A stretch of DNA of 64,000 nt from Williamsia sp. (GTDB taxonomy: Bacteria > Bacteroidota > Bacteroidia > Chitinophagales > Chitinophagaceae): assembly GCA_015069695.1 (NCBI GenBank), contig JADCRZ010000035.1, positions 1 to 64,000 on the forward strand, written 5' to 3'. The position numbers and the translations under genes were made by a program. Position 1 is the stretch's first letter; each line of letters opens with the position of its first letter. The notes under the pieces were generated by a model. It was not told the DNA's origin. It worked only from the letters and a program-made list of their open reading frames with translations, and searched no databases. Of the stretch, positions 35,720 to 63,478 are shown in pieces.

Positions 35720-37081
<1,362 letters not shown>

Positions 37082-38140: not shown

Positions 38141-38198
38141 CCGCTGTCCCTGTTGGCTGCATTACACTCACCCAACCAACCCTTTAAAGAAAGTGTTC

Positions 38199-40458
<2,260 letters not shown>

Positions 40459-40665
40459 GGTGAGGTTAGCTATCTCCTCTCGTTTGCCTGCAGGCTTGCC
40501 GCATCGCCCGGGTTGTTTTCTGAAAGCCATCGTTGAAAGCAATTTACCAGGTCACAAATATCCTGAATATTGGATTCAGATGCTGACCAGCAGCGGGAGA
40601 GACTGGTGGGAAAAAATGCCGTTCCCAAATCTGCCTGTTTCAGGGATGATATTCAGAGAAGGTAA

Positions 40666-41121
40666 ACATTTATTCTATCATTTTCAACAAACATACTACC
40701 CCTGAAATCCACCGTATCAGTAGTTTTACACGGCCAGACGGGAACGACGCCCAGAAATGCATGGATAAACGCACCAACAGTTGACTGCCAACCTGATCCA
40801 GAACGAGTCGTGATATCTGATGCAAACCTGGCGGGTTCTGCATTTGGGGAGGCAGGCTTAAAGGTGTTTGAGCGGGAACTGAAAGAGGCCATCATTCCTT
40901 TTGTAGAGAAATCATACCGCGTAAAAGCGGGTGCCGGCAACCGGGCCCTCGCCGGTTTATCAATGAGCGGGATCCATACGCTGTATACGGGGTCGAAAAA
41001 CACCGATCTGTTCTCTTACCTCGGCGTATTCAGTTCAGGTTGGAGCGTGCCCGCGCAAACAGGCGGCCCGGGTGATTTTGATTATTTCCATATCACAAAT
41101 ACGATCGCTGACAAAAAATAA
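40666..41121 (+). pseudogene. Decayed CE1-type esterase
   Basis: An open stretch with no proper start reads VSVVLHGQTGT, then KVFERELKEAIIPFVEKSYRVKAG and GNRALAGLSMSGIHTLYTGSKNTDLFSYLGVFSSGW, unmistakably CE1. The nucleophile elbow GLSMSG remains. The signal peptide, the E-set domain and much of the first half are missing, and the frame stops before the catalytic His. Between 40459 and 40665 lies sequence I cannot assign. It is a dead fourth copy in the esterase array. Confidence 0.7.
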
Positions 41122-41161
41122 GCCTGCTCCATCAGCGTGAAATTTATCAAACAGATCTTTT

Positions 41162-42496: not shown

Positions 42497-42525
42497 CCTT
42501 TGCAGCAACTCAAATCAACCAACGC

Positions 42526-43449
42526 ATGAGACGCAAGCTTACGGTACTGTTTATATTGCTCAACTTGTTCGTTGCAGGTTCCTTGTCTGCGCAAACGACA
42601 TCGAAAGAAGAATTGATCTTTCTTACTTCGGCATGGAAGGGAGAAAGGTTTGCAGATGGAAGGCCAAAGATAGCAGATGACCTGCTGCAAAGGGCAAAGC
42701 GGATCATGATCGACGATGCCTGGACCGTACTCAAAAACGAAGGTTACCTGAACCAGTTTGAAGGCGGATGGAAAACCCTGAATGATACCTTGATGACCGG
42801 CCGCGCAGTAACGGCTATGTACATGCCCAGCCGGCCGGATGTAGAAAAGAACATCAAGGAAAGAGGTGCCCGGCAGGGAAGAAAAGGCAACACCAATTCA
42901 TGGCCGATAGATATACTGGCCAGGGGTGATCTTTATGTGGCCGATGCTTTTGGAAAAATAAGCGGCGGCGGGATCATGGGAGCTACCCTCGCCAATTCAA
43001 TTTACAGCAAATCGGGCAACGGGGTTGTGTTTGACGGGGCGGCCAGAGACTGGCAGGAGATAAGAAATATAAAAGGATTCAACGCCTTTGTGCGTGACTT
43101 CCATCCTTCATTTACAGAAGAGATGGTGCTGATGGGCCTGAACACACCTGTTCGCATAGGAAGTGCCATCGTGCTACCCGGCGATCTGGTCATTGCTACA
43201 GGGGAAGGGGTTCTTTTTGTGCCCGCACACCTGGCAGAAGAAGTGGTGAGTACATCGGAATTTGTTATCCGCAAAGACCAGTTTGGGTTTGAGATGGTGC
43301 GTTCCGGCAAGTACAGCACCGGCGACATCGACAGCCAGTGGACAGATGCCATCAAGACCGAATTTTTAAGCTGGCTGGAAAAGCATCCTGCATTGGGCAG
43401 GATGACCCGTGCGGAACTGGACAATGTGATGAGCAAAAGAACCTGGTAG
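42526..43449 (+). CDS. Exported RraA-like protein (HMG/CHA-aldolase fold), paralogue 1
   Basis: A 307-residue protein with a clear signal peptide (AGSLSAQ, residue 23). The fold is that of RraA and 4-hydroxy-4-methyl-2-oxoglutarate aldolases: DILARGDLYVADAFGKISGGGIMG, then GNGVVFDGAARDWQEI. The Arg174-Asp175 pair needed for metal-dependent keto-acid aldol chemistry is kept, so it could be an aldolase or decarboxylase rather than an RNase E regulator, whose role would be impossible outside the cytoplasm. A second paralogue lies at 61154. It sits between GH43 and GH51 genes. Activity not proven. Confidence 0.8.
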   Translation: MRRKLTVLFILLNLFVAGSLSAQTTSKEELIFLTSAWKGERFADGRPKIADDLLQRAKRIMIDDAWTVLKNEGYLNQFEGGWKTLNDTLMTGRAVTAMYMPSRPDVEKNIKERGARQGRKGNTNSWPIDILARGDLYVADAFGKISGGGIMGATLANSIYSKSGNGVVFDGAARDWQEIRNIKGFNAFVRDFHPSFTEEMVLMGLNTPVRIGSAIVLPGDLVIATGEGVLFVPAHLAEEVVSTSEFVIRKDQFGFEMVRSGKYSTGDIDSQWTDAIKTEFLSWLEKHPALGRMTRAELDNVMSKRTW

Positions 43450-43575
43450 GCTTGTGCCGGAAGAGGAGCAGGGAGGATTGCTGACGGCAAAAGAAACATC
43501 TTACTGCCTGATAAATATTTATTAAACCGGTTGCTGATGCAAGCACAAGAACATCTATTTAAAACAAAATCATTG

Positions 43576-45779: not shown

Positions 45780-45840
45780 TGTACAGGATTTCTCGACGGA
45801 GGATTTTGGAAGTTTTCTGAACAGGCTTCCCTTATTTTTA
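45780..45840 (+). promoter_or_regulatory. 36-bp regulatory element plus -7 box upstream of the quinoprotein gene
   Basis: The element (45780-45815) matches the 35.7-kb copy at 35 of 36 positions. It ends AAGTTT, and TATTTTTA (45833-45840) follows at the same 17-base distance. The similarity continues upstream (nine more bases with three changes) and, more weakly, past the -7 box. The gene start at 45878 lies 37 bases beyond, a normal leader length. Confidence 0.7.
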
Positions 45841-48303: not shown

Positions 48304-49530
48304 TCACTGGCTGTTGTTGTTTTCCCCCAGCACATCATAGCCGCGCCATTTGTATTCTTTGGCAAGGGCGGTTGCGGCGGGCCAGGCTTTGAGGTGCTGG
48401 GGACTGGCCACCCATTTTCTCCGGTTTTCTTCCGTGTCAAAAGAAATCTGGATCTGGTAGTTGTATGTTGTTGCCTCTGCCTGTATTTCTTTGGCTAGGT
48501 TGTCCGGATAAAGGCGCAGCAGCTTGGAATGCAGGTATCCGGGTTGCACAAGCATGGCAGGCACGTAAACAGTGCTGTACATCTTCTCAAATGCTTCTGC
48601 GTTTTCTTTTGTTACAACAAAGTCCATCTGCAAGGCCATGGCTTTTTTTGCGGCGGCCCTGTTTGCGTTCATACGGGACTGATCCCGCTGTTTGGAAGCT
48701 GCAATGCCGATCACAAGCAGTTCAAGGTCTTCCTTGCCGGTATTGGAGATCCGGATAGATTCTCCGAGTGAGCCGTAAAGTGCGTCGTCAGCCTTGATGG
48801 GCGTAGAGTCTGCAGCATTCATGGCCATCGTGCCGGAACCTTTGATCACATAATACACTTCTTCCATTCCCTCCAGGGACCGGGGACCGGCCACGCTGCC
48901 CGCCTGGATGACTACATGGTCTACATGATCCCAGGTGGTGGTGAAAATATCCGGTCCCAACACGCGGCGGTACAGGACGCCGTTTCCCGGATAAGCCGGG
49001 TTGTTGGGCCGCAGGGCCTCCCTTTTCAGCTGCCCGGAAACAAACTGCGGGATGGGTTCGATCGTGGCGCCCACCCGGGTATCACCGAGGTCGAAATTGT
49101 CGCCCCGGCCTTTGGTGGTGCTCACGGCAAAGTTGAGCCAGCGCAGCGTTTGACCGCTGGCGTTGTAAATGCCATGCGCATCGCCCATCTTGCAGGGCAC
49201 AAGGGCCGGGCCTTTTATCCGGGATGTCCGTCCGTTCACCGTAAACTCTGCTTCGCCATCCAGGATCACATACATTTCTTCAATGGTGTGGTGAAAATGC
49301 TCGCCGATGCCGGCCTTGTCGGGGATCTCGCCTGCATGGAGGTAAAGGAAGTTGGTGGCGAATGGCTGGCTGCCCAGCAGGCCGGTAAATTTCATTGATC
49401 CCGCTCCTGCATGTACGGCAGGCAGCACCCGGTAGTTGGAAGGGCTGTTGTGGATAACACGTTTGCCGGCAGCTTGTGGAAAGGCAGTCAGCGATAACAT
49501 CATCAGCAGAAAAGACACGGTTTGCTTCAT
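48304..49530 (-). CDS. Exported bicupin protein with C-terminal ABM-like domain
   Basis: A 408-residue protein with a signal peptide (TAFPQAAG). The first cupin carries HFHHTIEEMYVILDGEAEF and the second VYYVIKGSGTMAMNAAD. From about residue 290 there is a ferredoxin-like ABM/Dabb-type domain (MDFVVTKENAEAFEKMYSTVYVPAML, later YQIQISFDTEENRRKWVASPQ). Cupins of this sort isomerise or linearise uronates and other sugar acids, or act as dioxygenases. The fusion is not familiar to me. It lies 210 bp downstream of the FAH gene on the same strand. Confidence 0.8.
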   Translation of the reverse strand: MKQTVSFLLMMLSLTAFPQAAGKRVIHNSPSNYRVLPAVHAGAGSMKFTGLLGSQPFATNFLYLHAGEIPDKAGIGEHFHHTIEEMYVILDGEAEFTVNGRTSRIKGPALVPCKMGDAHGIYNASGQTLRWLNFAVSTTKGRGDNFDLGDTRVGATIEPIPQFVSGQLKREALRPNNPAYPGNGVLYRRVLGPDIFTTTWDHVDHVVIQAGSVAGPRSLEGMEEVYYVIKGSGTMAMNAADSTPIKADDALYGSLGESIRISNTGKEDLELLVIGIAASKQRDQSRMNANRAAAKKAMALQMDFVVTKENAEAFEKMYSTVYVPAMLVQPGYLHSKLLRLYPDNLAKEIQAEATTYNYQIQISFDTEENRRKWVASPQHLKAWPAATALAKEYKWRGYDVLGENNNSQ

Positions 49531-49740: not shown

Positions 49741-50568
49741 TTACATTACCCTGTTTACAAGCGTGCCGATGCCATCGATCGAAATCCTGATCTCATCGCC
49801 GCTCTTCAAGGTAAAATCGTTCTCCGGTACGATGCCGGTGCCGGTCATGATGAGACAGCCATGCGGAAAGCTGCATTCACGAAACACAAAAGACACCAGT
49901 TCTTCAGGTGAGCGCTTCATCTGGTCGATGGCGATCGAGCCGGTAAAAGCGTTGCTGTTGTCTCGGAAGATTTCCAGCCGGATGCGGGTGCTTTTGTCCA
50001 GGGGTTGTTCGGTGAGATAGATGCAAGGGCCTACCGAAGCGCAGCCATCGTAGGTTTTGGCCTGCGGCAGGTACAGCGGGTTCTCGCCTTCGATGCTGCG
50101 GCTGCTCATATCGTTGCCGATGGTATAGCCGATGATTTTACCTGAGTAGGTGACGGCCAGCGTAAGCTCAGGTTCCGGTACGTCCCAGGTAGAGTCCCTG
50201 CGGATCCTGACTTCCTTGTTGGGCCCTGAAACGCGGTGGGCGGTTGATTTGAAAAATACTTCCGGTCTGTCGGCCTCGTATACGCGGGCATAAAAATCGC
50301 CGCCGCCGGCGTCCTTGCTTTCTTCCTGCCTGCCTATTTTGCTGCGCAGGTAGGTAACGCCGCAGGCCCATAGTTCCTGGTTCTCCATGGGAGCAATTAC
50401 ATCGTTGATAAGCTCGCTGCTGCCGGGTGTACCTGTTGCAACCAGCCTCCGGGCTTTTTCCAAAAGCTGGTCGTCGTTAAAAAAATCGTCCCAGCTTTGA
50501 TCTTCTACCAGCACGAATTTTTCTTCTTCCTGCAATACAATGCCTGATGTTGTCTTATAAATTTTCAT
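49741..50568 (-). CDS. FAH-family 2-keto-3-deoxy-sugar-acid dehydratase, KdaD/XylX-like
   Basis: A 275-residue cytosolic enzyme of the fumarylacetoacetate-hydrolase superfamily. The Mg ligands are Glu132 and Glu134 in VPEPELT and Asp153 in GYTIGNDMSSRSIEGENPLYLPQAK. The Glu-x-Glu to Asp spacing of 19 and the SRSIEGENPLYLPQAK motif fit 2-keto-3-deoxy-arabinonate/xylonate dehydratases, which give 2-oxoglutarate semialdehyde. The adjoining IlvD-type sugar-acid dehydratase would make its substrate. The semialdehyde dehydrogenase that normally follows is not in the window. Confidence 0.82.
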   Translation of the reverse strand: MKIYKTTSGIVLQEEEKFVLVEDQSWDDFFNDDQLLEKARRLVATGTPGSSELINDVIAPMENQELWACGVTYLRSKIGRQEESKDAGGGDFYARVYEADRPEVFFKSTAHRVSGPNKEVRIRRDSTWDVPEPELTLAVTYSGKIIGYTIGNDMSSRSIEGENPLYLPQAKTYDGCASVGPCIYLTEQPLDKSTRIRLEIFRDNSNAFTGSIAIDQMKRSPEELVSFVFRECSFPHGCLIMTGTGIVPENDFTLKSGDEIRISIDGIGTLVNRVM

Positions 50569-50619: not shown

Positions 50620-52362
50620 TCAGTGCAGGTCTCTTGTTACCTCGCTTCCGGAGCCGCCCTGCAAAAGGTCCAGGTCGGCGCCCAGGTGAGCCTGTTGTAC
50701 GTGCTCGATATAGATCCTCACATATCCCCGCTTTGCTACCGGGGCCGGTGCTTTCCAGGATACCCTTCTTTTTTGCAGTTCTTCTTCGCTCACGTCCAGG
50801 TGTAAACGCCGTTGCTCCACATCCAGCTCGATCCGGTCGCCATCCTTTACCAGGGCCAGGGTGCCGCCTACGGCGCTTTCGGGTGCTACATGCAGCACAA
50901 CAGTGCCCGCTGCCGTGCCGCTCATGCGGCCGTCAGAAATCCGGATCATGTCTTTGATGCCTTTGCGCAGCAGCTTTTCCGGCAGGTCTACATTGCCCAC
51001 CTCAGGCATGCCGGGATAGCCCACCGGCCCTACGTTCTTCAGTACAATTACACAATCTGCGTCGATGTCCAGATCCGGATCATCGATGCGGGCGTGGTAA
51101 TCTTCCATGGTCTCGAATACGACGGCCCGTCCACCATGTTTCATGAGTTCCACCGTCGCAGCGGAAGGTTTGATGACGGCCCCCTGTTCACATAAATTCC
51201 CTTTTAGCACGGCGATGCCTGCATTTGTTTGCAGGGGTTCATCGATGGTCGTGATTACTTTGCGGTCGTAACATACAGGCTTGCTGTTGTTTTCTCCGAG
51301 TGTTAGTCCGTTTACGGTTATAGCATGGTTGTGCAGGTGGTTTTTCAGCTCGTTGATCACCACCGGCAATCCCCCTGCATAAAAAAAATCTTCCATCAGG
51401 TATTTACCGGAAGGTTTGAGGTTGACCAGCAGGGGGATTTTGCTGCCCACCGCATCAAAATCATCCAGCTTCAGCTCCACACCGATCCTGCCTGCGATGG
51501 CCAGCAGGTGGACGATAAAATTGGTAGAGCCTCCAATAGCGGCATTTACCACGATGGCATTTTCAAATGCTTCCCTGTTCAGGATTTTTGAAAGCTTCAT
51601 GTTTTCCTTTACCATCTGCACGATGCGCCGGCCGGAGAGCTGCGCCATCAGTTTCTTACGGGCATCTACAGCCGGAATGGCTGCTGCACCGGGCAGGGTT
51701 AATCCCAATGCCTCTACCATGCAGGCCATCGTAGAAGCGGTACCCATGGTCATGCAATGTCCTGCGCTGCGTGCCACACCGATCTCGGCTTCCAGTATGT
51801 CTTCGGCCGTATAGTTTTCCACGAGGGTTTTTTCTTTTACCATCCAGTTGAACGAACCGCTGCCCAGGCATTCCCCTTTGAAGCGCCCGTTGAGCATCGG
51901 TCCGCCAGGTACCACAATGGTAGGCAGGTCCACGCTGCAAGCACCCATCAGGGTGGAAGGGGTGGTTTTATCGCAGCCTGTCAGCAGGACAACGCCGTCG
52001 AGCGGATTGGCCCGGATGGTTTCTTCCGTATCCATCGCGGCCAGGTTGCGGAACAGCATGGTAGTAGGGCGCATGATGGTTTCACCCAGGGAGGTGACGG
52101 GGAATTCAAGCGGAAACCCGCCTGCTTCCATGACGCCTTTTTTCACTACTTCGGCAAAATCACGCAAGTGGCCGTTGCAGGGGGTGAGCTCACTCCAGGT
52201 ATTGCAGATGCCGATCACCGGCTTGCCCTGGAAATAATCATCCGGATAGCCCTGGTTGCGCAGCCAGGACCGGTGTACAAAACCCATCTTGTCGCTTTTG
52301 CCAAACCACTCGGCACTCCGGGATGTGGGGCTTTTTACAGAATTGTCGTTGATTTCTTTCAT
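50620..52362 (-). CDS. IlvD/Edd-family sugar-acid (arabinonate/xylonate-type) dehydratase
   Basis: A 580-residue cytosolic Fe-S dehydratase. Candidate [2Fe-2S] ligands are Cys62 (TPCNGH), Cys130 (TGCDKTTPS) and Cys203 (GHCMTMG); the spacing 68/73 agrees with my recollection of L-arabinonate dehydratase. Lys132 and the Ser in SDGRMSGT complete the site. The opening GYPDDYFQGKPVIGICNTWSELTPCN is typical of pentonate dehydratases rather than biosynthetic dihydroxyacid dehydratase. Start 52362 matches the family; a start 23 codons further up is also possible. It lies 51 bp upstream of the KdaD-like gene. Confidence 0.88.
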   Translation of the reverse strand: MKEINDNSVKSPTSRSAEWFGKSDKMGFVHRSWLRNQGYPDDYFQGKPVIGICNTWSELTPCNGHLRDFAEVVKKGVMEAGGFPLEFPVTSLGETIMRPTTMLFRNLAAMDTEETIRANPLDGVVLLTGCDKTTPSTLMGACSVDLPTIVVPGGPMLNGRFKGECLGSGSFNWMVKEKTLVENYTAEDILEAEIGVARSAGHCMTMGTASTMACMVEALGLTLPGAAAIPAVDARKKLMAQLSGRRIVQMVKENMKLSKILNREAFENAIVVNAAIGGSTNFIVHLLAIAGRIGVELKLDDFDAVGSKIPLLVNLKPSGKYLMEDFFYAGGLPVVINELKNHLHNHAITVNGLTLGENNSKPVCYDRKVITTIDEPLQTNAGIAVLKGNLCEQGAVIKPSAATVELMKHGGRAVVFETMEDYHARIDDPDLDIDADCVIVLKNVGPVGYPGMPEVGNVDLPEKLLRKGIKDMIRISDGRMSGTAAGTVVLHVAPESAVGGTLALVKDGDRIELDVEQRRLHLDVSEEELQKRRVSWKAPAPVAKRGYVRIYIEHVQQAHLGADLDLLQGGSGSEVTRDLH

Positions 52363-52525
52363 TGGATTCTCTTGTTGTTGCTTTGAGCCAGCTGTACTTG
52401 ATGGCAGCTGGTATGTTCCGCTCTTTTTCATTGGCCCGGATCATATGACCATGTGTAAAGGATCTCTTCCGGCGCTGTTTTGTGAACTTGAATAAAGGGT
52501 GTTGGCGGAAGGTACATAAACGGGT

Positions 52526-54112
52526 TTATGGCTTATCCCAGAATACCTGGGTGGTCAGGTCGTCTTTCCCACCGATGCTCGTTACTGCCTGGGTGTAATT
52601 GGCTTCATTTGCACTTACTTCCCGCAAGGGGTAAGCAAATCTTCTGATAAAACCACCGTTCAGGTTGTTGTTAAACTTGTTGGGCAAAAGCACCGGGAAC
52701 CCGCTTCTTCTCCAGTTCGACCAGGCTTCGTAGCCGTTGTTAAAGCTGGCTATCCAGTACTGGGTATTGATCTGGTTCAGGGCATCGGCATTGTTCCAGC
52801 TTACGCCCGGCACGGTCAGGTACTGATCCTGCAGGTTCGTGGGAACAGCTTTGGGTTTGATGGTGCTTGGATAAACATCATACTCATCCATGGAAGCTTT
52901 GATGCCTGCTTCATAATACTGCTGCGCGGTAAGGGCGCCCGCCAGGCCGGTGAGCCAGCCTTTATAAGCAGCTTCCGCCAGCAGCAGCTTTGTTTGTGCG
53001 TTGGTAATGATGGGCATGGGGGCAGTGGAGTTCCCGGCCACATTGAAATTGATCTGAGAATAATCCTGTCCCTGTCCTGCGGAAGGCCTGTACCCAGGCA
53101 GGGTGCTCAGGGTGGCATCGCTGTAGCCGATGGGAAAACCGTACTGGTTGGCCAGGGTCGTATCAGGATTGGTTACCGAAGGTGCCGTGTTCTGATTGGG
53201 GGTATACCGGGCAGAGATATATTTCAGCCGGGGGTCAGTGTAACTCTTCAGCTTGGTAACAAGCGGTTCGGCGAGGTAGTAGTTGAACGGGTTCACAGTG
53301 CGGATCGTATTGTTTACAGCACTGTTGTAGCCGGTGATGGGAAGGCCCGCGTCATCCATGTTTCTAACGATCGCATTGTCTGCGTTGGATTGCATCACAC
53401 CACCGTTGAAAGCATCCTGCACGATAGATTTGGCCTTGTTCGCATCCAGTTTGGAATAGCGCATGCCGAGGCGGAGCAGGAGAGAATTGCCCAGTTTTTT
53501 CCAGAACAGGTTTTCGTTGGCGGTGCTGGTACCGATCGCAACAAAGATGTCGAAATTGCTTGTGTTGTCGCCGCTGGCATTCAGGGCCTGTGTCGCTTCT
53601 TTGAGCTCTTTGTACAGGTCTGTATAGATCGCGTCTGCCTTGTCGTATTTGGGTTTGAGCGCGCCGGTAAGCCCTTTCCCCGCTTCTGTGTACGGTAGGT
53701 CTCCATAGTGATCCACCAGCCACATGTAATTATACGCCCGCCAGATCCTGGTTTCGTTGTACAGATTCTTCCGTGCTGCGTTGTCTTTGACCACGCTGAT
53801 AACCTGCTCCAGGTATTTGATGGAGCCTGTATACGCGTTCCAGGGCCCGTTGTTCAGGCCGTCCACGTTTTCATTGAACTGGTATCCTGAAGTCGTTCCC
53901 AGGTTGTAGGGAAGAACAAACTGCTGGACGATCGTAGACTCACCCATCCAGTTGAATGCAGGTGTGTTGCGCAGGGCATTGGTGAACAGATACCCGGGAT
54001 CCACGTTGTTGATCTGCTGGGGATTGGTATTGATTTCCTTGAAGTTCTTGTCGCACCCGGCCAGGAACAAAAAGGCGGGCGTGACCAGTATGAGGCGAAA
54101 GATCTTTTTCAT
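52526..54112 (-). CDS. SusD-like (SusD_2 type) surface lipoprotein
   Basis: A 528-residue lipoprotein with a good lipobox, LFLAGC (Cys20), followed by DKNFKEINTNPQQINNVDPGYLFTNAL, the mark of the SusD_2 subgroup. Helical repeats include IWRAYNYMWLVDHYGDLPYTEAG, and the C-terminus ends GGKDDLTTQVFWDKP. It works with the SusC encoded 13 bp upstream. The 163-bp gap to the IlvD gene (52363-52525) contains only the IlvD leader region. Confidence 0.93.
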   Translation of the reverse strand: MKKIFRLILVTPAFLFLAGCDKNFKEINTNPQQINNVDPGYLFTNALRNTPAFNWMGESTIVQQFVLPYNLGTTSGYQFNENVDGLNNGPWNAYTGSIKYLEQVISVVKDNAARKNLYNETRIWRAYNYMWLVDHYGDLPYTEAGKGLTGALKPKYDKADAIYTDLYKELKEATQALNASGDNTSNFDIFVAIGTSTANENLFWKKLGNSLLLRLGMRYSKLDANKAKSIVQDAFNGGVMQSNADNAIVRNMDDAGLPITGYNSAVNNTIRTVNPFNYYLAEPLVTKLKSYTDPRLKYISARYTPNQNTAPSVTNPDTTLANQYGFPIGYSDATLSTLPGYRPSAGQGQDYSQINFNVAGNSTAPMPIITNAQTKLLLAEAAYKGWLTGLAGALTAQQYYEAGIKASMDEYDVYPSTIKPKAVPTNLQDQYLTVPGVSWNNADALNQINTQYWIASFNNGYEAWSNWRRSGFPVLLPNKFNNNLNGGFIRRFAYPLREVSANEANYTQAVTSIGGKDDLTTQVFWDKP

Positions 54113-54125
54113 ATAAAACCGCTGT

Positions 54126-57100
54126 TTAGAATTTCACGTTTAAGTTCAGGCTGTAATTGCGGGTGGTAGGGAGTGATACGGCTTCGTATCCCGTTCTGAA
54201 ATCACCGGAGGAGGCTACGGCTTCCGGATCAACATCGGGAACGTATTTTTTGAGGATGGCCACATTGCGGCAAGCAGCCGATAAGGTCAGGCCTTTTACG
54301 AATTTTACGTTGGAGCTAACCAGCTTTGAAAAATCGTAGGTCAAAGTAATATTCCTGAGTTTGATATAATCCGATTTGTAGATGAACGGATCTGCGATCT
54401 GGAGGGTGCGGTAATTGGCATAGAACTGCTGGCCAAATACAGGCGTTGAATTTGTTTTTCCGGCGTCGGTGCCGCTGGCGTAAATACCAGGCAATATAAC
54501 GCCGGTTTCACCCGGTCTGCGGCCTACGAGAGAAGCCTGGGAATGGCCTTGCCGCAGGGAGTTCAGGGCACTGCCTGAGAGCATGTATCCACCTGTCTTG
54601 TAATCAAAATGAACCAGCAGGCTTAAGTTTTTGTACCGGAATGTGTTGTTCCATCCGCCGGTGAATTTAGGGAGGGCACTGCCGAACAGCACATCGGTGG
54701 CTGATGCCAGCAATTGCCCTTTGGAGCTGCCAGCCGTTCCGTTTACAAGGATCTGCCCGTTGTTGTCTCTCAGGTATGTTTTGGCAGCGATCTGGTTCAG
54801 GGGCTTGCCCACTTCATACACCAGCTTGCCGATAAACTCATTGCTTGCCCCGCCATTGTACCAGTCTGCCACAATATAACGGGTTATGCCCGGGCCCATG
54901 GACAGGACCTTGCTGGTGTTGTAGGCTGTGTTAAAGGAGCTGCTCCAGCTAAAGCCGCGTGTTCTGAACGGAACCACTTCCAGCATCACTTCCGCGCCAC
55001 GGTTCTGCAAAGAGCCGATGTTCAGCAGCGTGTTGTTGTAGCCGGAAGAACTGGATACCTGCGCAGGCATGATCTGGTCGGTGGTGCGCTTGTCGTAAAC
55101 AGATAGATCCAGGTTCAGTCTGCTTCTCAGCATTTTCAGTTCCAGGCCGATCTCTTTTTCTTTTACGCTGAACGGCCTTAGGAAAGCATTGGGTGCATCT
55201 GTCTGGTTGATGTTGCCCACGGTGCGTCCCAGGTATTGTTGCGTGTTAAAGCCATAGCTCAGATTGCCGTAGGCATAGGTCAGGCCAGGTCCGTTTGCGC
55301 TTCCTACGTCGGCCCATGATCCACGGAGCTTTCCGTATTCCAGCCAGGACAGTTTTTCTTTCAGCAGTTCAGAGAACACAAAGCTGCCGCTCACGGAAGG
55401 ATAGGTATACGTGTTGGAGCTGGGGTTCAGGATAGAGAACCAGTCCTGGCGGATTGTACCATCTACGAACAGCATGTTTTTGTAACCCAGCGACACCTGG
55501 CCATACAATGAATTGATCTGGGTTTTTGAATAGGTGTATCCCTGGGTAAAGACGGTACCGTTGCCAATGGAATAAACATCCCTTACTACAAATCCCGTAG
55601 AGGTGGCGTTCACGTTGCGGTTGATGGTGATCTGCGAGTTGCCGCCCACAAATGCATCGAGCGAGAGGTCTCCGAAATTGTGGTTGCCGCCCAGGATAAA
55701 ATCATAGTTCATATCCTTGCTGCTTCCTTCGCTTACATTGTAAGAGCCGTTGTAGGTGGTTCTTGTATTGTCGTAATAAATACCGTTGTTTGATGTGCCG
55801 TAACTTCCTGCACCAGTGGGGTTGTTTTGCTCATTGAACGACCTGTTGTAGTTCATGTTGACGCGGCCCTGCAGGTACAGCCATTTTGCGAACTGATATT
55901 TGGCACTTACGGTACCCAGCAGCCGGTCGTTGTTGTTTTTATAGAACTGTCTGGGTATATAGAAATAGGGGTTCAGAACGGTTGTTCCAAAACCGTTTGT
56001 AGTGGTTTCTGCGCCAAAGCTGTTGACTGCCTTTTGCTCAAACACAGAGAGGGGAGTAGTGGGAGACATGCGCACAACAAAGTTCATGTATCCCTGGCCC
56101 TGCACGCCTACCTGCGGCGGGTTCTGGCTCTGGTCATTTGTATAGTTCATGTTCACCTGAACAGAGAGCTTATCGTTCAGGTTCTGGTTTACGCCAAGGT
56201 TGAAGATCTTTCTCTGGTAGGTATTGCCTGGTGTAATGCCCTTTGATTCGAGGTTGGAAAAAGAAGCCCTGAAATTTCCTCTTGCATTGCCACCGGAAAC
56301 TGCGATGGTATTGGTAAGGGACGTGCCTGTTTGAAAGAATTTCTTAAGCCGGTTTTTTTCGGGTGTGTAAGGGCGTGACTCCCCATCGAACTGGATCGTG
56401 GATGCGCCGTCGTAGCGCTCGCCCCAGCCAAATTGCGCGGTGTTCACCGCTTCTCCGACGTTGCGGGGGCGTACGCCTGTAGTAACACCATTTACTGCCA
56501 GGCCCTGTCCCTGTCCGAATTCATACTGGTAATTTGTATAGTCCAGCACTTCGTCGCTTGAATAGTTGGCGGTATATTCTACGCCGATCCCGGTGTTTTT
56601 AGCGCCCGTCTTGGTGGTGATCACGATGGCGCCGTTGGCAGCCCTTGATCCGTACAGTGCAGCGGCGGTCGCACCTTTCAGTACAGTCATGCTTTCGACA
56701 TCGTCCGGATTAAATAACAGGAGGTTATCCCCATTGTCCCGGCTGTCGTTCCCGTTGGCGCCGTTGGCGCCCTGGCTCATAGGCAAACCATTCACGACGA
56801 GCAAAGGCGAATTGGTGGCACCGGCAAAAGAAGACTGGCCGCGCAGGCGGATCTTTGTACTGGCACCCGCACCGGCAGAGGGGGGAGAGATGTCCAGGCC
56901 TGCGATCTTGCCTTCCAGTGATGCCATGATATTGGTGGTGCGGTTTTGCTGCAGCTCGCTCACCTTCACGGTTTCAGCGGAATAGCCCAGCTTCCTGGCC
57001 TCGCGTTTCAACCCGAGGGCTGTAACTACAACACCTTCCATGTTGCGTACATCGGTGTTCATTGTAATGTTGATGGTACGCTGCCCTTTTATTTCTACTT

Positions 57101-57362
57101 CCTGGGGGGCCAGTCCCACATAGGTAAAAACAAGGACATCGTTCCCGGTTGCGCTGATGCTGAACTTTCCTTCGTCATTGGTAAGGGTTGTGCGTGTCTT
57201 TCCTTTTACCTGCACGGTCACTTTACTCACCGGGCGGTTGTCTGCATCTGATACGGTGCCTGAAATGGCTTGGGAAAAGACTGCAATCGAGGATAGGAGA
57301 AATAAGAGAATAAGAAAGGGGTGCTTCAGATAGGCTGAAGCCATCCGTAAAGATTTTTTCAT
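54126..57362 (-). CDS. SusC/RagA-family TonB-linked outer membrane protein
   Basis: A 1078-residue outer-membrane importer. Signal peptide to AVFSQ, carboxypeptidase-regulatory-like domain (ISGTVSDADNRPVSKVTVQVKG), SusC signature MEGVVVTALGLKREARKLGYS, plug (SLEGKIAGLDISPPSAGAG) and barrel. It is the first gene of the reverse-strand SusC-SusD unit, which may extend into the sugar-acid genes. The 36-bp element and -7 box lie about 65-125 bp upstream. The ligand is unknown; the context suggests pentose-rich oligosaccharides. Confidence 0.95.
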   Translation of the reverse strand: MKKSLRMASAYLKHPFLILLFLLSSIAVFSQAISGTVSDADNRPVSKVTVQVKGKTRTTLTNDEGKFSISATGNDVLVFTYVGLAPQEVEIKGQRTINITMNTDVRNMEGVVVTALGLKREARKLGYSAETVKVSELQQNRTTNIMASLEGKIAGLDISPPSAGAGASTKIRLRGQSSFAGATNSPLLVVNGLPMSQGANGANGNDSRDNGDNLLLFNPDDVESMTVLKGATAAALYGSRAANGAIVITTKTGAKNTGIGVEYTANYSSDEVLDYTNYQYEFGQGQGLAVNGVTTGVRPRNVGEAVNTAQFGWGERYDGASTIQFDGESRPYTPEKNRLKKFFQTGTSLTNTIAVSGGNARGNFRASFSNLESKGITPGNTYQRKIFNLGVNQNLNDKLSVQVNMNYTNDQSQNPPQVGVQGQGYMNFVVRMSPTTPLSVFEQKAVNSFGAETTTNGFGTTVLNPYFYIPRQFYKNNNDRLLGTVSAKYQFAKWLYLQGRVNMNYNRSFNEQNNPTGAGSYGTSNNGIYYDNTRTTYNGSYNVSEGSSKDMNYDFILGGNHNFGDLSLDAFVGGNSQITINRNVNATSTGFVVRDVYSIGNGTVFTQGYTYSKTQINSLYGQVSLGYKNMLFVDGTIRQDWFSILNPSSNTYTYPSVSGSFVFSELLKEKLSWLEYGKLRGSWADVGSANGPGLTYAYGNLSYGFNTQQYLGRTVGNINQTDAPNAFLRPFSVKEKEIGLELKMLRSRLNLDLSVYDKRTTDQIMPAQVSSSSGYNNTLLNIGSLQNRGAEVMLEVVPFRTRGFSWSSSFNTAYNTSKVLSMGPGITRYIVADWYNGGASNEFIGKLVYEVGKPLNQIAAKTYLRDNNGQILVNGTAGSSKGQLLASATDVLFGSALPKFTGGWNNTFRYKNLSLLVHFDYKTGGYMLSGSALNSLRQGHSQASLVGRRPGETGVILPGIYASGTDAGKTNSTPVFGQQFYANYRTLQIADPFIYKSDYIKLRNITLTYDFSKLVSSNVKFVKGLTLSAACRNVAILKKYVPDVDPEAVASSGDFRTGYEAVSLPTTRNYSLNLNVKF

Positions 57363-57426: not shown

Positions 57427-57487
57427 CAAAGTATCTAAAAAATATTCCGGCAAACTTCCAAAATTGTGCGCCGAAGGATATTGTACA
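57427..57487 (-). promoter_or_regulatory. 36-bp regulatory element plus -7 box upstream of reverse-strand SusC
   Basis: Read on the minus strand, the element (57487 down to 57452) begins TGTACA and ends ATTTTGGAAGTTT, about 27 of 36 positions identical to the 45.8-kb copy. ATACTTTG (57434-57427) follows after the same 17 bases. It sits in the 190-bp divergent gap shared with the AraC gene, so it could also influence that gene. Confidence 0.65.
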
Positions 57488-57552: not shown

Positions 57553-58443
57553 ATGAACCAACACTTTTTAAAAAAGGATTGTAAAGAGCTTCATGCCTTT
57601 CCCCATATCATTGAGTATGCGCTAAAGAAAAATGCCACCATCCAATTTGATTCGCTGAAAAAAGAAATCTCATCCTGCTTGCGCTTCTATTATGTAATAG
57701 ATGGCCGTTTTGATTGGGTTATCAATGGACAAAGCCATATCCTCTACCCGGGCGACCTGGCGATTGTTGCGCCCGGGCAAAGCTTTGGCGGTGAAAAGGA
57801 TTTTCTTGACATCGGCACCGTTTCATGGCTCTGTCTGGGTATCCAGCAATGGGATAGTGATGGCGGTATGACGATGGGCGGATGGAGCCAGCTTACCGAC
57901 AGCGAATGCAGTGCCATCGGTAAATTCATGCTGGTGAACGGATCGCCTATTGTTTCCAAATTAAATGAAGCAGGGAACTTGTTTGTTACGATGCACAATG
58001 AATTCACGAACCAGGAAATCGGTTATGTTGTCCGCATCAATCAGTTGATAGATGAGTTGTTTATTTTAATCATACGCCACCTGATGCGGCAGAATAATTT
58101 CCGGAGAGATTTTCCGCAGGCTTTCCTGCAACTCGAGAAAACGCTGCGTGAGAACCTGTCTCATCAATGGACGGTAGAAGAAATGGCAGCCCTGGTCGGA
58201 TTGGGCAATACGGCATTTTCAGAAAGGGTAAAACTCTTCACCGGCTTTTCACCCCTGAATTACCTGATCAACATCCGCATTTCTGAAGCGATCAAATTAT
58301 TAAACCTGTCTGATATGCACGTAACAGATGTTGCCCTGGAAGTAGGTTTTTATTCATCGCAGCATTTTTCAACAACTTTCAAAAAACTGACCGGGTATAC
58401 ACCCAGGGAATTCAGAAAGAAAAACATACCTATAGAGGACTAA
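57553..58443 (+). CDS. AraC-family transcriptional regulator
   Basis: A 296-residue regulator. An N-terminal cupin-like sensing domain (FYYVIDGRFDWVINGQSHILYPGDLAIVAPGQ) precedes the double helix-turn-helix at about 195-292 (QWTVEEMAALVGLGNTAFSERVKLFTGFSPLNYL, later VTDVALEVGFYSSQHFSTTFKKLTGYTPREFRKK). It diverges from the SusC-SusD operon and leads the kinase-transporter-aldolase run, 10 bp before the kinase. It probably activates both in response to a sugar or sugar acid. Confidence 0.92.
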   Translation: MNQHFLKKDCKELHAFPHIIEYALKKNATIQFDSLKKEISSCLRFYYVIDGRFDWVINGQSHILYPGDLAIVAPGQSFGGEKDFLDIGTVSWLCLGIQQWDSDGGMTMGGWSQLTDSECSAIGKFMLVNGSPIVSKLNEAGNLFVTMHNEFTNQEIGYVVRINQLIDELFILIIRHLMRQNNFRRDFPQAFLQLEKTLRENLSHQWTVEEMAALVGLGNTAFSERVKLFTGFSPLNYLINIRISEAIKLLNLSDMHVTDVALEVGFYSSQHFSTTFKKLTGYTPREFRKKNIPIED

Positions 58444-58453: not shown

Positions 58454-59980
58454 ATGGAGTGCATCATCACCATTGAAATAGGTACCGGCGCCATCAGAGT
58501 AGTGGCCTTTGATCTGAGTGGAGCCTTGCTCGGCTCTTCGGCCGGCTCTTATCCTACTTTTCATGAAAGGCCGGACTTCAGTGAGCAGGATCCGGAGCAG
58601 ATCTTTATCACCATGCTTTATATCCTCAAGAATTTTTTGAATGAAAAGATTCATTCCAAAAGGATCAAAGTGGTGAGCATTTGTTTTAACTCGGCGATGC
58701 ACAGTGTGTTGCCGATTGATAAAAAAGGCATCCCGATCGGGAATGCGATCGCCTGGTCAGACAACCGGGCAAAACGGGAAGCGGCTTACCTGAAAAGCTC
58801 CGGCCTCGGCGAATCTCTGTACAAGGCTACCGGTACTCCCATCCATCCCATGTCGCCGCTCAACAAGATTACCTGGTTAAAAAACAATGACAAAGACCGG
58901 TTCGCCGCATCAAAGAAGTTTTTATCCATCAAAACCTATATCATCCAGCAGCTGACAGGTGAATACATCATCGATCACAGCATTGCTTCCGCGACGGGCC
59001 TGTTAAACATCCATACGGTTCAGTGGGAAGAAGAAGCCCTGAACCATGCTGGCATTGTAAGGGGACAGCTCCCTGAGCTGGTTCCTGTTTTTTATACACC
59101 CAAAGGGTTGAAAAAGGAATACCAGACCTCCCTCGGCCTGCATGACAAGGTAAAGATCATCGCCGGTTCGAGTGATGGTTGCATGGCAACACTGGGCGCC
59201 GGCGTCTGGGGAAACGGGAAGGCAACCGTTACGCTGGAAGAAAGCGGTGCGGTAAGGATCGTCGGCAAAGAAGTACTGCAGGATAAGAAGCAAAGATTGT
59301 TCAACTACCTGCTTACGGAAGGAAACTATGTGAGCGGCGGTCCTACCAACAATGCAGGTTCTGTGTTTGAATGGTATGCCAAGCAGTTCGGTGATTTTAA
59401 AAGGGTCTTCGACCTGGAAGGTTGTATGGAGAACCTGATCAAGGACGCAGGCAATGTGCCGGCAGGTTCGCAGGGACTGATCTTTCTTCCTTACCTGCAG
59501 GGAGAAAGGGCCCCTATCTGGAACGCCGATGCGCGCGGTGTTTACTTTGGCCTGAACATAAAACACGGACAGCATCATTTTACGCGGGCCACCATCGAAG
59601 GTATCATCTATGCCTTTTACAGCATCGGAAAAACGGTGCAGGAGCATCGCAATTTCACCAGCCTTTCTGCCAACGGAACATTTGCTTCCTATCCTTTCTG
59701 GACACAACTGATGGCGGATGTGTTCAATATGACAGTTCATATCAAGCAAAACGCGGGACCGGACAGTGTTGCCTGCGGTGGGTTTCTGGTCAGCGTTACC
59801 GAACTGGGTATGTATAAAGATCTGGAGCACGCGGCGCAGAAAGTAAAACTGGTCGATATGTTTTTGCCAAGAAAACAGGACCATGCTGTTTACATGAAGC
59901 ACTACCCCATTTTCGAACGGCTAAGCGCAAAACTGTCTGAAGAGTTTGCCCTGATCGCAGATTTGCAACAGGATGACTGA
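58454..59980 (+). CDS. FGGY-family carbohydrate kinase, gluconokinase-like
   Basis: A 508-residue cytosolic kinase. The N-terminal phosphate loop is TIEIGTGAIRVVAFD; further motifs are AIAWSDNRAKREA, the ATP-binding region GGPTNNAGSVFEWYAKQF and the late ACGGFLVSVTELGMY. Overall it resembles FGGY gluconate kinases more than xylulo- or glycerol kinases (IHPMSPLNKITWLK). It would phosphorylate a sugar acid such as gluconate. It follows the AraC gene closely and precedes the BASS transporter. Confidence 0.85.
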   Translation: MECIITIEIGTGAIRVVAFDLSGALLGSSAGSYPTFHERPDFSEQDPEQIFITMLYILKNFLNEKIHSKRIKVVSICFNSAMHSVLPIDKKGIPIGNAIAWSDNRAKREAAYLKSSGLGESLYKATGTPIHPMSPLNKITWLKNNDKDRFAASKKFLSIKTYIIQQLTGEYIIDHSIASATGLLNIHTVQWEEEALNHAGIVRGQLPELVPVFYTPKGLKKEYQTSLGLHDKVKIIAGSSDGCMATLGAGVWGNGKATVTLEESGAVRIVGKEVLQDKKQRLFNYLLTEGNYVSGGPTNNAGSVFEWYAKQFGDFKRVFDLEGCMENLIKDAGNVPAGSQGLIFLPYLQGERAPIWNADARGVYFGLNIKHGQHHFTRATIEGIIYAFYSIGKTVQEHRNFTSLSANGTFASYPFWTQLMADVFNMTVHIKQNAGPDSVACGGFLVSVTELGMYKDLEHAAQKVKLVDMFLPRKQDHAVYMKHYPIFERLSAKLSEEFALIADLQQDD

Positions 59981-60006
59981 TAACACCAAAACGCTAATTA
60001 CTTGCT

Positions 60007-61122
60007 ATGAATAAAAAATCATTCTTCTATGTTGTTTCTGCTGTTCTCCTCCTTGCCTGGGTCTTTGTAACGTTCAGGCATATGCACAACTGGGGAGGCT
60101 GGCTGCTGATGTTGTTTTATTTCAGCCTGGCCCTTGCATTCAGGAGCAACAAATTTCTGAAAGGCCTGTCGTATACCGTTGTGATCATCGGCATTGTATG
60201 TTTTGCCCTGTATGAACCGCAGTATTTTATCAGTTTGGGCAGCTTTAAATTTTCCACGCTTATCATCCCCTTGCTTCAGATCATTATGTTTGGCATGGGC
60301 ACGGAGCTGAGCCTGAAAGATTTTGCCAATGTCGTCCGCATGCCGAAAGGCATTGTTGTGGGGGTTGTATTCCATTACCTCATCATGCCGCTGGTTGGTT
60401 TTGGCGTGGCAAACCTGTTCCACTTTCCCAACGAGATCGCAGCGGGAATCATCCTGGTAGGATGCTGCCCGAGTGGCCTTGCGTCGAACGTGATGGCTTA
60501 CCTCGCAAGGGCAAACCTCGCGCTGTCTGTGTCTGTAACCACCATCTCCACCCTGCTGGCTCCTTTTTTAACCCCGCTGCTGTTGCAATGGCTAGGAGGC
60601 AATTTTGTGCAGATTGATTTCTGGACAATGGTATGGGATATTACAAAGATCGTGATCATCCCCATCGTTGCGGGACTGTCTTTTCATTACCTGCTCCGGG
60701 GCAGGTTCGGCTGGCTGGACAAGGTACTGCCCCTTGTATCCATGGGTGGTATTGCCATTATTCTGGCCATCATGGTTGCATCCGGAAGAGACAACCTGTT
60801 GAAGGTAGGCTTGTTGTTGCTGGCCGCTACATTTCTTCACAATGTAGCCGGATTTTTCCTGGGGTATTGGTCTGCCCGGTTGCTCCGGTTTCAGGAAAGG
60901 GATTGCCGCACCATCGCCCTGGAGGTAGGCATGCAAAACGCCGGACTGGCCACCGGCCTGGCTTTGACGATGGGAAAAATTGCCACAGCGGGCTTGGCAC
61001 CAGCCATCTTCGGACCTGTTATGAACGTGAACGGTTCTTCACTGGCAAGCTGGTGGCACAATCACCTGCCGCCAGATGAGGTTGCCGAACCTGAGAAGGT
61101 AGAGGAAGTAAGTCTTACCTGA
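60007..61122 (+). CDS. BASS-family (bile acid:sodium symporter-like) transporter
   Basis: A 371-residue inner-membrane protein with about ten helices. Family signatures include FGMGTELSLKDF, GCCPSGLASNVMAYLARANLALSVSVT and IALEVGMQNAGLATGLA, where the crossing sodium-site helices lie. BASS proteins carry organic acids, for example pantoate or pyruvate as well as bile acids. Between a sugar-acid kinase and an exported aldolase-like protein it may import a keto acid or sugar acid from the periplasm. Confidence 0.9.
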   Translation: MNKKSFFYVVSAVLLLAWVFVTFRHMHNWGGWLLMLFYFSLALAFRSNKFLKGLSYTVVIIGIVCFALYEPQYFISLGSFKFSTLIIPLLQIIMFGMGTELSLKDFANVVRMPKGIVVGVVFHYLIMPLVGFGVANLFHFPNEIAAGIILVGCCPSGLASNVMAYLARANLALSVSVTTISTLLAPFLTPLLLQWLGGNFVQIDFWTMVWDITKIVIIPIVAGLSFHYLLRGRFGWLDKVLPLVSMGGIAIILAIMVASGRDNLLKVGLLLLAATFLHNVAGFFLGYWSARLLRFQERDCRTIALEVGMQNAGLATGLALTMGKIATAGLAPAIFGPVMNVNGSSLASWWHNHLPPDEVAEPEKVEEVSLT

Positions 61123-61153
61123 ATCATATCAACCAACGTAAACAAACAAATAC

Positions 61154-62110
61154 ATGTCAACAATGAAACGATTGCTATTACTCTTTACAATGGCATTGAC
61201 GCTTACCCGTGTAAACGCCCAGTCGGTGCAGATCACCAGAGAACATCTGATTGCCCTCACGCCTGATTGGAAGGGAGAGCGTTTCCCGGACGGGCGCCCC
61301 AAGGTGCCGGACAATATCATCAAACGGATGAAGGCTGTGAGTGTGGAAGAAGCCTGGGCCACCCTGAGCAATGCAGGCTACCGGTACCAGATAGCCGAAG
61401 ACTGGCAAATGATCAACCCTGACAGTGTATTGGTTGGCCGGGCGGTGACCGCAACGTTTATGCCTGGCCGTCCTGACGTTTGGAAGGCTGTTGATTCCAT
61501 CGGCAGAAAAGAAGGAAGAAGGGCGCAGAATGTATGGGCAGTCGAAATGCTGGTAAAAGGCGATGTGTATGTGGCCGACCAGTTCGGGGCAAAGAAAAAC
61601 GGTCCTACCATCGGTGACAATGTAGGCAATGCCATCTATGCAAGAACAGGCAATGGCATTGTTTATGACGGTGCGTTGAGAGACCTGGAAGGGCTGAAAG
61701 AAATCGGCGGCTTTACTTCTTACTACACCAGCTACGATCCATCTTATCACAACCCTGGCATGGGTGCCAGCAGGGATCTGACCACCATGATCGTCGGGAT
61801 CAACCAGCCCACCCGCATCAGAACGGTGACCGTGATGCCTGGCGATGTTGTACTGGGCAAGATGGGGGTTGTTGTATTTATCCCACCGCACCTGGCTGAA
61901 AGGATCGTAACTACTTCAGAGATCGTGCGTTTGCGTGATATGTTCGGCCACCAGCGGTTGCGGGAAGGAAAATATACGGCCGGGCAAATAGACACGCGCT
62001 GGGCAGATGAGATAGAAAAGGATTTTTCCAAATGGCTCAACGATCACCTGAACGAGCTGCCTGTTCCAAAAGAGACCATTCAGCAATTTTTAAAAGACCG
62101 CACCTGGTAA
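61154..62110 (+). CDS. Exported RraA-like protein, paralogue 2
   Basis: A 318-residue exported relative of the protein at 42526 (signal TRVNAQ, residue 23). The two share WKGERFxDGRPK, GRAVTAxxMPxRPDV and the C-terminal RTW. The aldolase pair is Arg176-Asp177 in GIVYDGALRDLEGL, and the preceding metal-site region is VKGDVYVADQFGAKKNGPTIG. It lies between a BASS transporter and a Tat-exported dehydratase, which favours a role in keto-acid cleavage outside the cytoplasm. The exact reaction is unproven. Confidence 0.8.
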   Translation: MSTMKRLLLLFTMALTLTRVNAQSVQITREHLIALTPDWKGERFPDGRPKVPDNIIKRMKAVSVEEAWATLSNAGYRYQIAEDWQMINPDSVLVGRAVTATFMPGRPDVWKAVDSIGRKEGRRAQNVWAVEMLVKGDVYVADQFGAKKNGPTIGDNVGNAIYARTGNGIVYDGALRDLEGLKEIGGFTSYYTSYDPSYHNPGMGASRDLTTMIVGINQPTRIRTVTVMPGDVVLGKMGVVVFIPPHLAERIVTTSEIVRLRDMFGHQRLREGKYTAGQIDTRWADEIEKDFSKWLNDHLNELPVPKETIQQFLKDRTW

Positions 62111-62200
62111 CAAAGAAATCACTCAACACCTACAGTTGCCATCAGCATATTAAGCCAATAGTTTACTACGAACCCAATCATCAATACTAAAATAATTCTT

Positions 62201-63478
62201 ATGTCAAGTTCGAGAAGATCGTTCCTCGGTAAAGCAGCGCTTGCTGCAGCGATGACGCCATTCGCCACTGTTTCCAGCACCTTCGGACAGGGCCTTACAG
62301 ATGCACTGGAAAGAACACCCAAAGTATCTCCACCGTCTGACCTGAAGATCACCGATGTGAAATGTGCTTATTCAGGTGGTGGTTTGTTTGTGAAAATTTA
62401 CACTGATCAGAATATATGGGGCAGCGGAGAGGCTGTGGACGCCGTAGGCGGTACATATTACCTGGTTCAGCGTCTTGGAAGGCAGCTGCGGGGAAGAAGT
62501 CCCCTGGCCCCCAACCGGATCTTTGAGGAACTGCGCAAGGGGGCTTTCTTCGGTGGTGCCCAGTCCGGCGTATATGTAGCTGTATTAAGCGCTATTGATG
62601 CGGCGCTCTGGGACCTGTGCGGCAAGGCCCTGGGCCTGCCCGTTTACCAGCTGCTGGGGGGCAAGTTCCGCGACAAGGTGCGCGTTTACTGCGATACGGA
62701 ATTGTACGCTGTGCGCAATCCCGGACCCGATGAATATGCCAAAGCGGCAAAAGACGCTGTGAGCAGAGGGTATACGGCCGTCAAGTTCGACATCGACTCC
62801 GCCACAGACCCCAACAAATACGACCGGTATAACTGGACGGCCAGCCTCGCCGAACTGGAAAGAATGTATAATTCCATTGAGGCTGTCCGCAAGGCCGTTG
62901 GCCCGCACATCGACATCTGCGTAGACATGCACGGTAGATATGATGCGCCTACCGGCAGGAAAGTGGCCAAGATGATGGAGCCCCTGAACCTGATGTGGCT
63001 TGAAGAACCCGTACCGGCCGACAATGTGGATGCATACAAGAGCATCACGCAGGAAACCAGCACACCCATCTGCGGCGGTGAAAATTTTTATTTGGGTTAC
63101 GGATTTACCCGTTTGCTGGCCGAGTCGGCCGTAGACCTGATCATGCCTGATCTGCAGAAATGCGGCGGACTGGGTGAAGGACAGCGCATCGCCAACCTCG
63201 CCAATTGCTTTTACACACCGTTCTCTCCCCATATGGTAGGTTCGTTCCTGGCTGCGATGGCCTCTGCGCATGTGTGTGCATCGGTTCCCAACTTTCACAT
63301 CCTTGAATGGCAGACCTTGAGCGATACCGAACCCAGGTGGAAGGAAATCGTCACCTACGACAAGCCTTTTATCGAAAAAGGTTTTCTGGTGGTGTCAGAC
63401 AAACCAGGCATCGGGGTGGAAATAAATGAAGAAGGATTAAAGAAATATGCAACGCCCGGCGTGCCGTTTTTTGCCTGA
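62201..63478 (+). CDS. Tat-exported enolase-superfamily sugar-acid dehydratase
   Basis: A 425-residue protein with a twin-arginine signal (SSSRRSFLGKAALAAAM). The enolase-superfamily fold follows: Lys195 in AVKFDID, Asp242-x-His244 in VDMHGR, metal ligands around Glu268 (LEEPVP) and Glu294 (CGGEN), and His344 in SPHMVGS. The DMHG motif resembles the mannonate/galactonate dehydratase groups rather than racemases. It would dehydrate an aldonic acid to a 2-keto-3-deoxy acid, here apparently in the periplasm, where its metal-dependent chemistry is unusual. Confidence 0.85.
   Translation: MSSSRRSFLGKAALAAAMTPFATVSSTFGQGLTDALERTPKVSPPSDLKITDVKCAYSGGGLFVKIYTDQNIWGSGEAVDAVGGTYYLVQRLGRQLRGRSPLAPNRIFEELRKGAFFGGAQSGVYVAVLSAIDAALWDLCGKALGLPVYQLLGGKFRDKVRVYCDTELYAVRNPGPDEYAKAAKDAVSRGYTAVKFDIDSATDPNKYDRYNWTASLAELERMYNSIEAVRKAVGPHIDICVDMHGRYDAPTGRKVAKMMEPLNLMWLEEPVPADNVDAYKSITQETSTPICGGENFYLGYGFTRLLAESAVDLIMPDLQKCGGLGEGQRIANLANCFYTPFSPHMVGSFLAAMASAHVCASVPNFHILEWQTLSDTEPRWKEIVTYDKPFIEKGFLVVSDKPGIGVEINEEGLKKYATPGVPFFA

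Follow-up and report, generated by a model that had tools for sequence, protein, structure and literature searches.

RhaR (BT3768) is the sole AraC-family entry in the monosaccharide table for Bacteroides thetaiotaomicron, as given in the available part of PMC3878776, where its regulon is described as a single operon. The motif of the RhaR group is presented in the accessible text of PMC3870299 as a direct repeat with a 21-bp period. AraC-type DNA-binding domains also occur in hybrid two-component systems, which control SusC/D operons according to the available sections of PMC3878776 and PMC10766802. The arabinose or xylose regulons of Bacteroides are assigned to AraR and XylR, members of the NrtR family, in the accessible portions of PMC3878776 and PMC4666351, and the AraR regulon also includes SusC/D pairs. 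We analysed a stretch of 64,000 nucleotides of a bacterial genome (the window) that carries a recurring 36-bp element, which is very probably the activator operator of the AraC-family regulator encoded at 57553–58443 on the forward strand, and which would serve an oxidative L-arabinose regulon. Among the open-access papers that literature searches listed, we recognised no description of this regulator or motif.

A 36-bp element and the adjacent AraC-family gene

The preliminary description reported three widely separated copies of an element, and exact searching bears this out. The pattern TGTACA-N17-ATTTTGGAAGTTT matches exactly three places in the window, 5′ of esterase, GH43 and GH51 genes (operator A; 35734–35769, forward strand), of a PQQ dehydrogenase gene (operator B; 45780–45815, forward) and of susC (operator C; 57452–57487, reverse), and is absent from shuffled sequence (0/100). 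The exact 13-mer ATTTTGGAAGTTT occurs four times in the whole genome compared with once for its reversed control, and the degenerate 36-mer, at up to three mismatches, occurs four times in the 7.66-Mb genome (control, 0), the extra copy (operator D) being on contig C188. At up to three mismatches, the 13-mer by itself shows no enrichment in the window (23 occurrences versus 32 expected), so the signal resides in the full element. A scan of the genome, which the preliminary description had suggested as a check, was made with a sequence-only model of 50 sites drawn from 76 non-redundant ones, and returned five full-length sites (E < 0.002), four of them in the model's training set: A (E = 3.8 × 10−4, in the set), B (E = 0.0017, outside it), C (E = 2.8 × 10−6, in the set, and conserved beside orthologues of the regulator), D and one on contig C143. 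All five are located at genes of the proposed pathway or at a paralogous araC/susC pair; beyond the window, one is 5′ of an SMP-30 lactonase gene and one is beside that pair. Seven weaker matches in the same genome (E = 0.32–8.9, all partial) were discarded as noise.

The boundaries of the element are sharp. In an alignment of 15 sites, conservation extends from base 1 to base 36, with 15 invariant positions and little information in the flanks, and the second conserved island, outside the 36 bp, is the −7 box. The matrix built from these 15 sites gives 43–46 bits for A–D, all four of which are in its training set; over 10 Mb of Markov-1 sequence its top score is 17.8 bits, so that no match reaches 18. 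The promoter-proximal TTGGAAG is nearly invariant in the 50 sites. The best of 51 symmetries, an inverted repeat centred on base 17 (AACGnCGTT; z = 3.1, P = 0.004, uncorrected), is suggestive only. A direct-repeat architecture is unsupported by the same test, in which a 17-bp direct repeat reached z = 1.85 and a 21-bp direct repeat was not among the best eight symmetries. No known structured RNA is matched at the Rfam gathering threshold in the 12144 bases of the four loci surrounding operators A–D.

The araC gene divergent from susC encodes a one-component protein of 296 residues that has the features of AraC/XylS membership, namely two C-terminal HTHs (HTH_AraC, PF00165, E = 1.9 × 10−20 over two stretches; HTH_18, PF12833, E = 2 × 10−19, residues 211–289) and a cupin-type N-terminal sensor (Cupin_2, E = 5 × 10−5, at 23.3 bits under the Pfam cut-off of 27.2). 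Its AlphaFold model (mean pLDDT, 80.6; pTM, 0.57) superposes poorly (r.m.s.d. about 21) on the full-length AraC-family proteins that it matches, such as Rns, and parts of the model separately match the sensor domains of BgaR, RhaR and AraC and the HTH domains of AraC type. Of 27 NCBIfam families, the 25 listed all score the protein under their curated cut-off (RhaS, 60.5 versus 288 bits; AraC, 48.7 versus 208 bits). The HTH2 sequence GFYSSQHF is invariant in 12 orthologues and may recognise TTGGAAG.

Joint occurrence of site and regulator

An initial search gave ten orthologues (48–70% identity) from nine relatives as well as a paralogue (64% identity) in the same genome, and in 11 of 11 upstream regions the 36 bp occur on the opposite strand, starting 89–263 bp before araC. 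A distant homologue (L055; 34% identity) lacks the site. We then considered the best 80 of 182 named loci, which include Chitinophagales, Cytophagales and Sphingobacteriales (Chitinophagaceae, Arcicella and Mucilaginibacter among the names); at least 5 of the 80 repeat loci of the matrix training set. A divergent site of at least 18 bits is present within 600 bp of araC in 73, the site is on the araC strand 2.46–2.55 kb past the araC start in six (L083, L093, L097, L099, L115 and L135), and the remaining locus (L074) is cut at a contig end. The weakest site counted among these best 80 of 182 has 18.6 bits (L117).

Across 294 genomes of the family, the regulator has 47 matches at E ≤ 1 × 10−50, of which 46 were kept as close orthologues (all at least 424 bits) and L055 (34%, 247.7 bits) was dropped. 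An adjacent divergent site (E ≤ 0.002) accompanies 44 of the 46, and the other two (G142 and G208) have weaker sites of about 30 bits in place. Such counts of adjacent sites are partly circular, because the sites were collected beside araC and four of the five in the genome of the window helped to train the model; co-occurrence by genome and distal targets are much less so. Forty-four of the 294 genomes carry an orthologue (E ≤ 1 × 10−50), a single close one in 42 of them, and a site at E ≤ 0.001 is found in 43 of these 44 genomes compared with 1 of the 250 that have no regulator (both, 43; regulator only, 1; site only, 1; neither, 249; Fisher P = 2 × 10−49, uncorrected for phylogeny). The exceptions are G142, with the regulator only, and G244, with a site only, which is a partial match. 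Relaxing the threshold to E ≤ 0.05 brings the family genomes with a match to 99 of 294, the extra 55 being weak and mostly partial. In a draw of 395 genomes from the class, the regulator is present in three, a site (E ≤ 0.001) in three and both in two, including the genome of the window; G568 pairs the regulator with a site of 19.9 bits, and G714 has a partial site and no orthologue. The preliminary description had proposed, with some hesitation, the divergent AraC protein as the regulator, and this proposal is strengthened: the site tracks the AraC orthologue in the 294 family genomes and in named genomes of three orders.

Some loci show variations of their own. Four Mucilaginibacter loci (L090, L106, L114 and L124) have an araC-side operator that ends in TAATGGTATTTT (TAATGGTATCTT in L124) with an RraA-like gene behind it and, at a distance of about 3.7 kb, a second site of the same orientation. 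The paralogue in the genome of the window (G000:C143:52117-52995; L045 9618-10496; 64% identity) has its own FGGY kinase, a divergent SusC/D pair and its own operator (a TATTGG variant), which suggests a second, parallel regulon. That GFYSSQHF is nearly invariant across the 80 loci is uninformative, as this sequence served as a search word for them. Sites ending in ATGAAAGTTT are paired with SSTF in HTH2, not STTF or ATTF, at L108, L120, L122 and L123, a count that covers sites of at least 24 bits and in which four rows were unreadable. SSTF is present in exactly 5 of the 80 loci, the fifth being L117, whose weaker site also ends in ATGAAAGTTT. These five are three loci named Arcicella and two Cytophagales bins, and probably reflect one event; we therefore did not count this as co-variation of HTH2 and site.

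Target genes, promoter geometry and possibly copied leaders

Operator C precedes, on the reverse strand, genes for a SusC-like TonB-dependent receptor (54126–57362), a SusD-like lipoprotein (52526–54112), an IlvD/EDD dehydratase close to L-arabinonate dehydratase (50620–52431; NCBIfam PRK13016, 840.9 bits, cut-off 882; PDB 8ej0, 9evv and others), a FAH-fold protein like 2-keto-3-deoxy-D-arabinonate dehydratase (49741–50568; PDB 2q18, E = 3 × 10−51) and a cupin protein (48304–49530) that, from its position, may end the susC operon; the SusC, SusD and cupin assignments come from domain searches. On the forward strand, operator A precedes a CE1-type esterase gene (35951–37081) followed by candidate members of the same operon (37211–45717), which encode BD-FAE and CE1-type esterases and then GH43-CBM6, RraA-like and GH51-like arabinofuranosidase proteins. 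Operator B precedes the gene for a PQQ-dependent dehydrogenase with a cytochrome domain (45878–48142, forward), and operator D that for an SMP-30 protein. The element had been placed at gene starts, and all three window copies do precede genes; the mechanical reading-frame starts at 35723 and 45842 are probably wrong. The former is doubtful because its frame would include the operator, and the real starts are likely to be 35951 (CE1 esterase) and 45878 (PQQ dehydrogenase), both of which are followed by signal-peptide-like sequence. Codirectional with araC are genes for an FGGY kinase, an SBF transporter, an RraA-like protein and an MR_MLE dehydratase (58454–63478, forward); the 50-site model finds no full site 5′ of these genes in this genome. 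The FGGY gene follows araC in 11 of the 11 neighbourhoods compared, often with SBF, RraA and MR_MLE genes, and the FGGY kinase of the window has its top score with a gluconokinase model, under the cut-off of that model.

The same classes of gene recur behind the site elsewhere. In 60 of the best 80 of 182 loci (55 divergent and 5 on the araC strand), susC comes first among the window-like genes behind the site; this place is taken by an RraA-like gene in 5, IlvD/EDD in 2, FAH in 2 and SMP-30, SBF or FGGY in 1 each; 6 have no such gene within 1.2 kb, 1 reaches a contig end and 1 has no site. As susC lies behind the site in these 60 loci, and directly behind five of the six araC-strand sites (an SBF transporter gene in L115), the site belongs to the target operon and not to araC. 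At E ≤ 0.002, the family genomes contain 77 matches, 44 adjacent and divergent to araC and 33 distal. The distal matches comprise A, B, D, one each in G244 and G265, and 28 that were fetched; with one from G036 (E = 0.0041) added, 29 were classified by BLASTP against the proteins of the window and C188 (Pfam for 7 of the 29). The first gene encodes an SMP-30 protein in 13 (eight genera; those matched are only 25–30% identical to the protein behind D), SusC in 8 (six genera), an esterase in 5 (two genera), a GH51-like protein in 1 (L174) and an aldehyde dehydrogenase in 1 (L180), and there is none in 1 (L190). The distal site of G265 is followed by an unscanned 567-amino-acid frame and then a cupin homologue, and in G049 the gene divergent from araC encodes a GH51-like arabinofuranosidase, with a CE1-type esterase next. 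The view of the downstream genes as parts of one carbohydrate response is supported, with the five sites of this genome at pathway genes or beside the paralogous araC/susC pair and distal sites of other genomes at the same gene classes.

The enzyme set favours a Weimberg-type route of oxidative L-arabinose use, to judge from the IlvD/EDD protein near L-arabinonate dehydratase, the FAH-type protein and, in one relative, the aldehyde dehydrogenase. The arabinofuranosidases and esterases point to the L-arabinose of arabinoxylan as the source. Around operator D, where domains were scanned for the SMP-30 protein only, the stretch L009 284–11941 (C188) also encodes what we take to be a second PQQ dehydrogenase, two GH97-like proteins and one GH95-like protein.

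The −7 boxes TAGTTTTA (35787–35794, forward) and TATTTTTA (45833–45840, forward) begin 17 bases after operators A and B. A spacing of exactly 17 had been claimed for all three copies; in the third, TACTTTG (57427–57433, reverse), the TA of TAnnTTTR follows operator C after 18 bases, and the apparent distance of 17 arose from a one-base shift in the way the box had been written. The collection of 103 sites comprises 96 distinct 36-mers and draws in part on near-duplicate genomes; 61 of the 103 have a strict TAnnTT[TAG] box at offset 17 (43 sites) or 18 (18 sites), 42 lack one at these offsets, and any other offset has at most 3. This box corresponds to the −7 feature TAnnTTTG of sigma-ABfr promoters. 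Their consensus −33 box is TTTG in the available text of PMC7366714 and PMC6847099; in the accessible sections of the latter, the T of the −7 box is at −12 in Flavobacterium johnsoniae numbering, and Bacteroidota as a whole have a weak −33 motif. When the sites were aligned and inspected by eye, TTTG was not found near −33, and GGAAGTTT of the operator occupies those positions. The site spans about −65 to −30 in that numbering, and the earlier remark that the end of the element overlaps −33 is upheld, as either spacing puts the operator over it. Judged from the sequence, this layout is that of a promoter-overlapping activator, and activation itself we infer. In L063 (9770–9835), the 17-base spacer before a TAAATTG box holds a reversed half-site, AAACTTCCAATA, so a second protein molecule may bind that promoter.

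From these features we infer binding, a dimer, a ligand and the sugar as follows. Probably dimeric, and probably with arabinose or one of its oxidation products as ligand, the regulator would cover about −65 to −30 of each promoter, replace the missing −33 contact and recruit RNA polymerase to the TAnnTTTR box 17–18 bases downstream. It would thereby switch on, in a coordinated manner, the release of arabinose (esterases, GH43 and GH51), uptake (SusC/D), oxidation (PQQ dehydrogenase), lactone opening (SMP-30, on contig C188) and two dehydrations (IlvD/EDD and FAH-type) of a Weimberg-like pathway.

The sequences downstream of some sites are themselves alike. Likeness is strong between B and D (z = 18), lower between A and D (z = 9–10) and lower still between A and B (z about 3); C resembles A, B or D at z of at most 2.6, and the upstream flanks of the sites are not alike (|z| ≤ 1.1). 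Between B and D, the likeness spans the leader and about the first ten codons (identities per 15-base block of 12, 10, then 4 and 8) though the protein families differ. Comparison of 14 sites from four genomes with one another (91 pairs) gives a median z of 0.4, and three further pairs reach 4.1–7.8, two of them between genomes. We offer tentatively, as a reading that falls slightly short of an even chance and rests mainly on one genome, that the regulon grew by promoter capture, with an operator–promoter–leader cassette copied before unrelated genes and the oxidative arabinose pathway thereby wired to one AraC regulator of at least three Bacteroidota orders. Such a cassette would have its sharply defined left border at the operator and extend about ten codons into the gene, with copies before the PQQ dehydrogenase and the SMP-30 lactonase and a decayed form before the CE1 esterase. 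A 38-codon open frame (MVQKNLRK...) at 35830–35946, about where B and D have start codons, may be the remnant of a captured leader in A. The cassette, if real, would be a clear example of a gene joining a regulon.

Alternative explanations and comparison with known systems

The two weightier alternatives keep a regulator of this family. The same protein and operator might repress, with a ligand releasing the protein so that the promoter fires; the site does overlap −33, where repressors also sit, and the argument from the missing TTTG is not strong, given the generally weak −33 motif of Bacteroidota in the available part of PMC6847099. We nevertheless regard repression as improbable, since conserved letters of the operator fill the −33 positions, as expected of activator-dependent promoters, and since RhaS and RhaR of Escherichia coli are described as positive factors in the accessible text of PMC3870299. 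Similarly unlikely is that the paralogue on C143, rather than the protein of the window, acts on some or all of the window sites. It shares 64% identity with that protein and is accompanied by a site; however, 42 of 44 family genomes contain a single close orthologue, which associates the motif with the entire clade, and operator C adjoins the araC gene of the window.

That the window copies are mere repeats or duplicated DNA with no regulatory role is hardly credible, even though the likeness of B and D, and to a smaller degree that of A and D, continues downstream of the site, because past the 36 bp and the −7 box there is little in common between operator C and the sites of other species, the upstream flanks share nothing and the site tracks the regulator across genomes. 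Equally implausible is that the element is coding sequence. A 15-residue frame, within which A and B differ only synonymously, is open through both and also through D, where it has no ATG; but in several conserved sites from other species that frame runs into a stop (TGTATAA), and a −7 box follows the element. We rejected a coding origin on the grounds of these stops and the missing start codon of D. The preferred reading, an activator operator of the window's AraC-family protein, brings together a regulator, an operator defined to the base, the geometry of the promoters and a limited set of targets, open to testing in culturable relatives such as Chitinophaga or Niastella. It links a SusC/D locus with PQQ oxidation and an SMP-30 lactonase, such that an oxidative arabinose route would be controlled as a unit, and it provides a candidate inducible promoter.

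Among the systems described, AraR and XylR of Bacteroides belong, as far as the available accounts go, to another protein family, and a domain search found no Nudix-like NrtR domain in the window regulator. The Bacteroides AraR and XylR regulons serve the isomerase pathway and are not known to serve an oxidative one. Hybrid two-component systems resemble the present case, in their available descriptions, in the AraC-type DNA-binding domain and the control of SusC/D operons; in the 296 residues of the window regulator, only HTH and cupin domains were found, and no kinase or receiver. The one-component sugar activators AraC, RhaS and RhaR of the AraC/XylS family share with it the cupin-like N-terminal domain, the two HTHs and a long site adjoining the promoter, and differ in that the window regulator falls under their NCBIfam cut-offs and its site has no 21-bp direct repeat among the best symmetries. 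Bacteroides RhaR (BT3768) is likewise an AraC-family protein of Bacteroidota that regulates sugar use, whereas the system described here differs from the accessible description of RhaR in its motif and in serving several operons, SusC/D among them.
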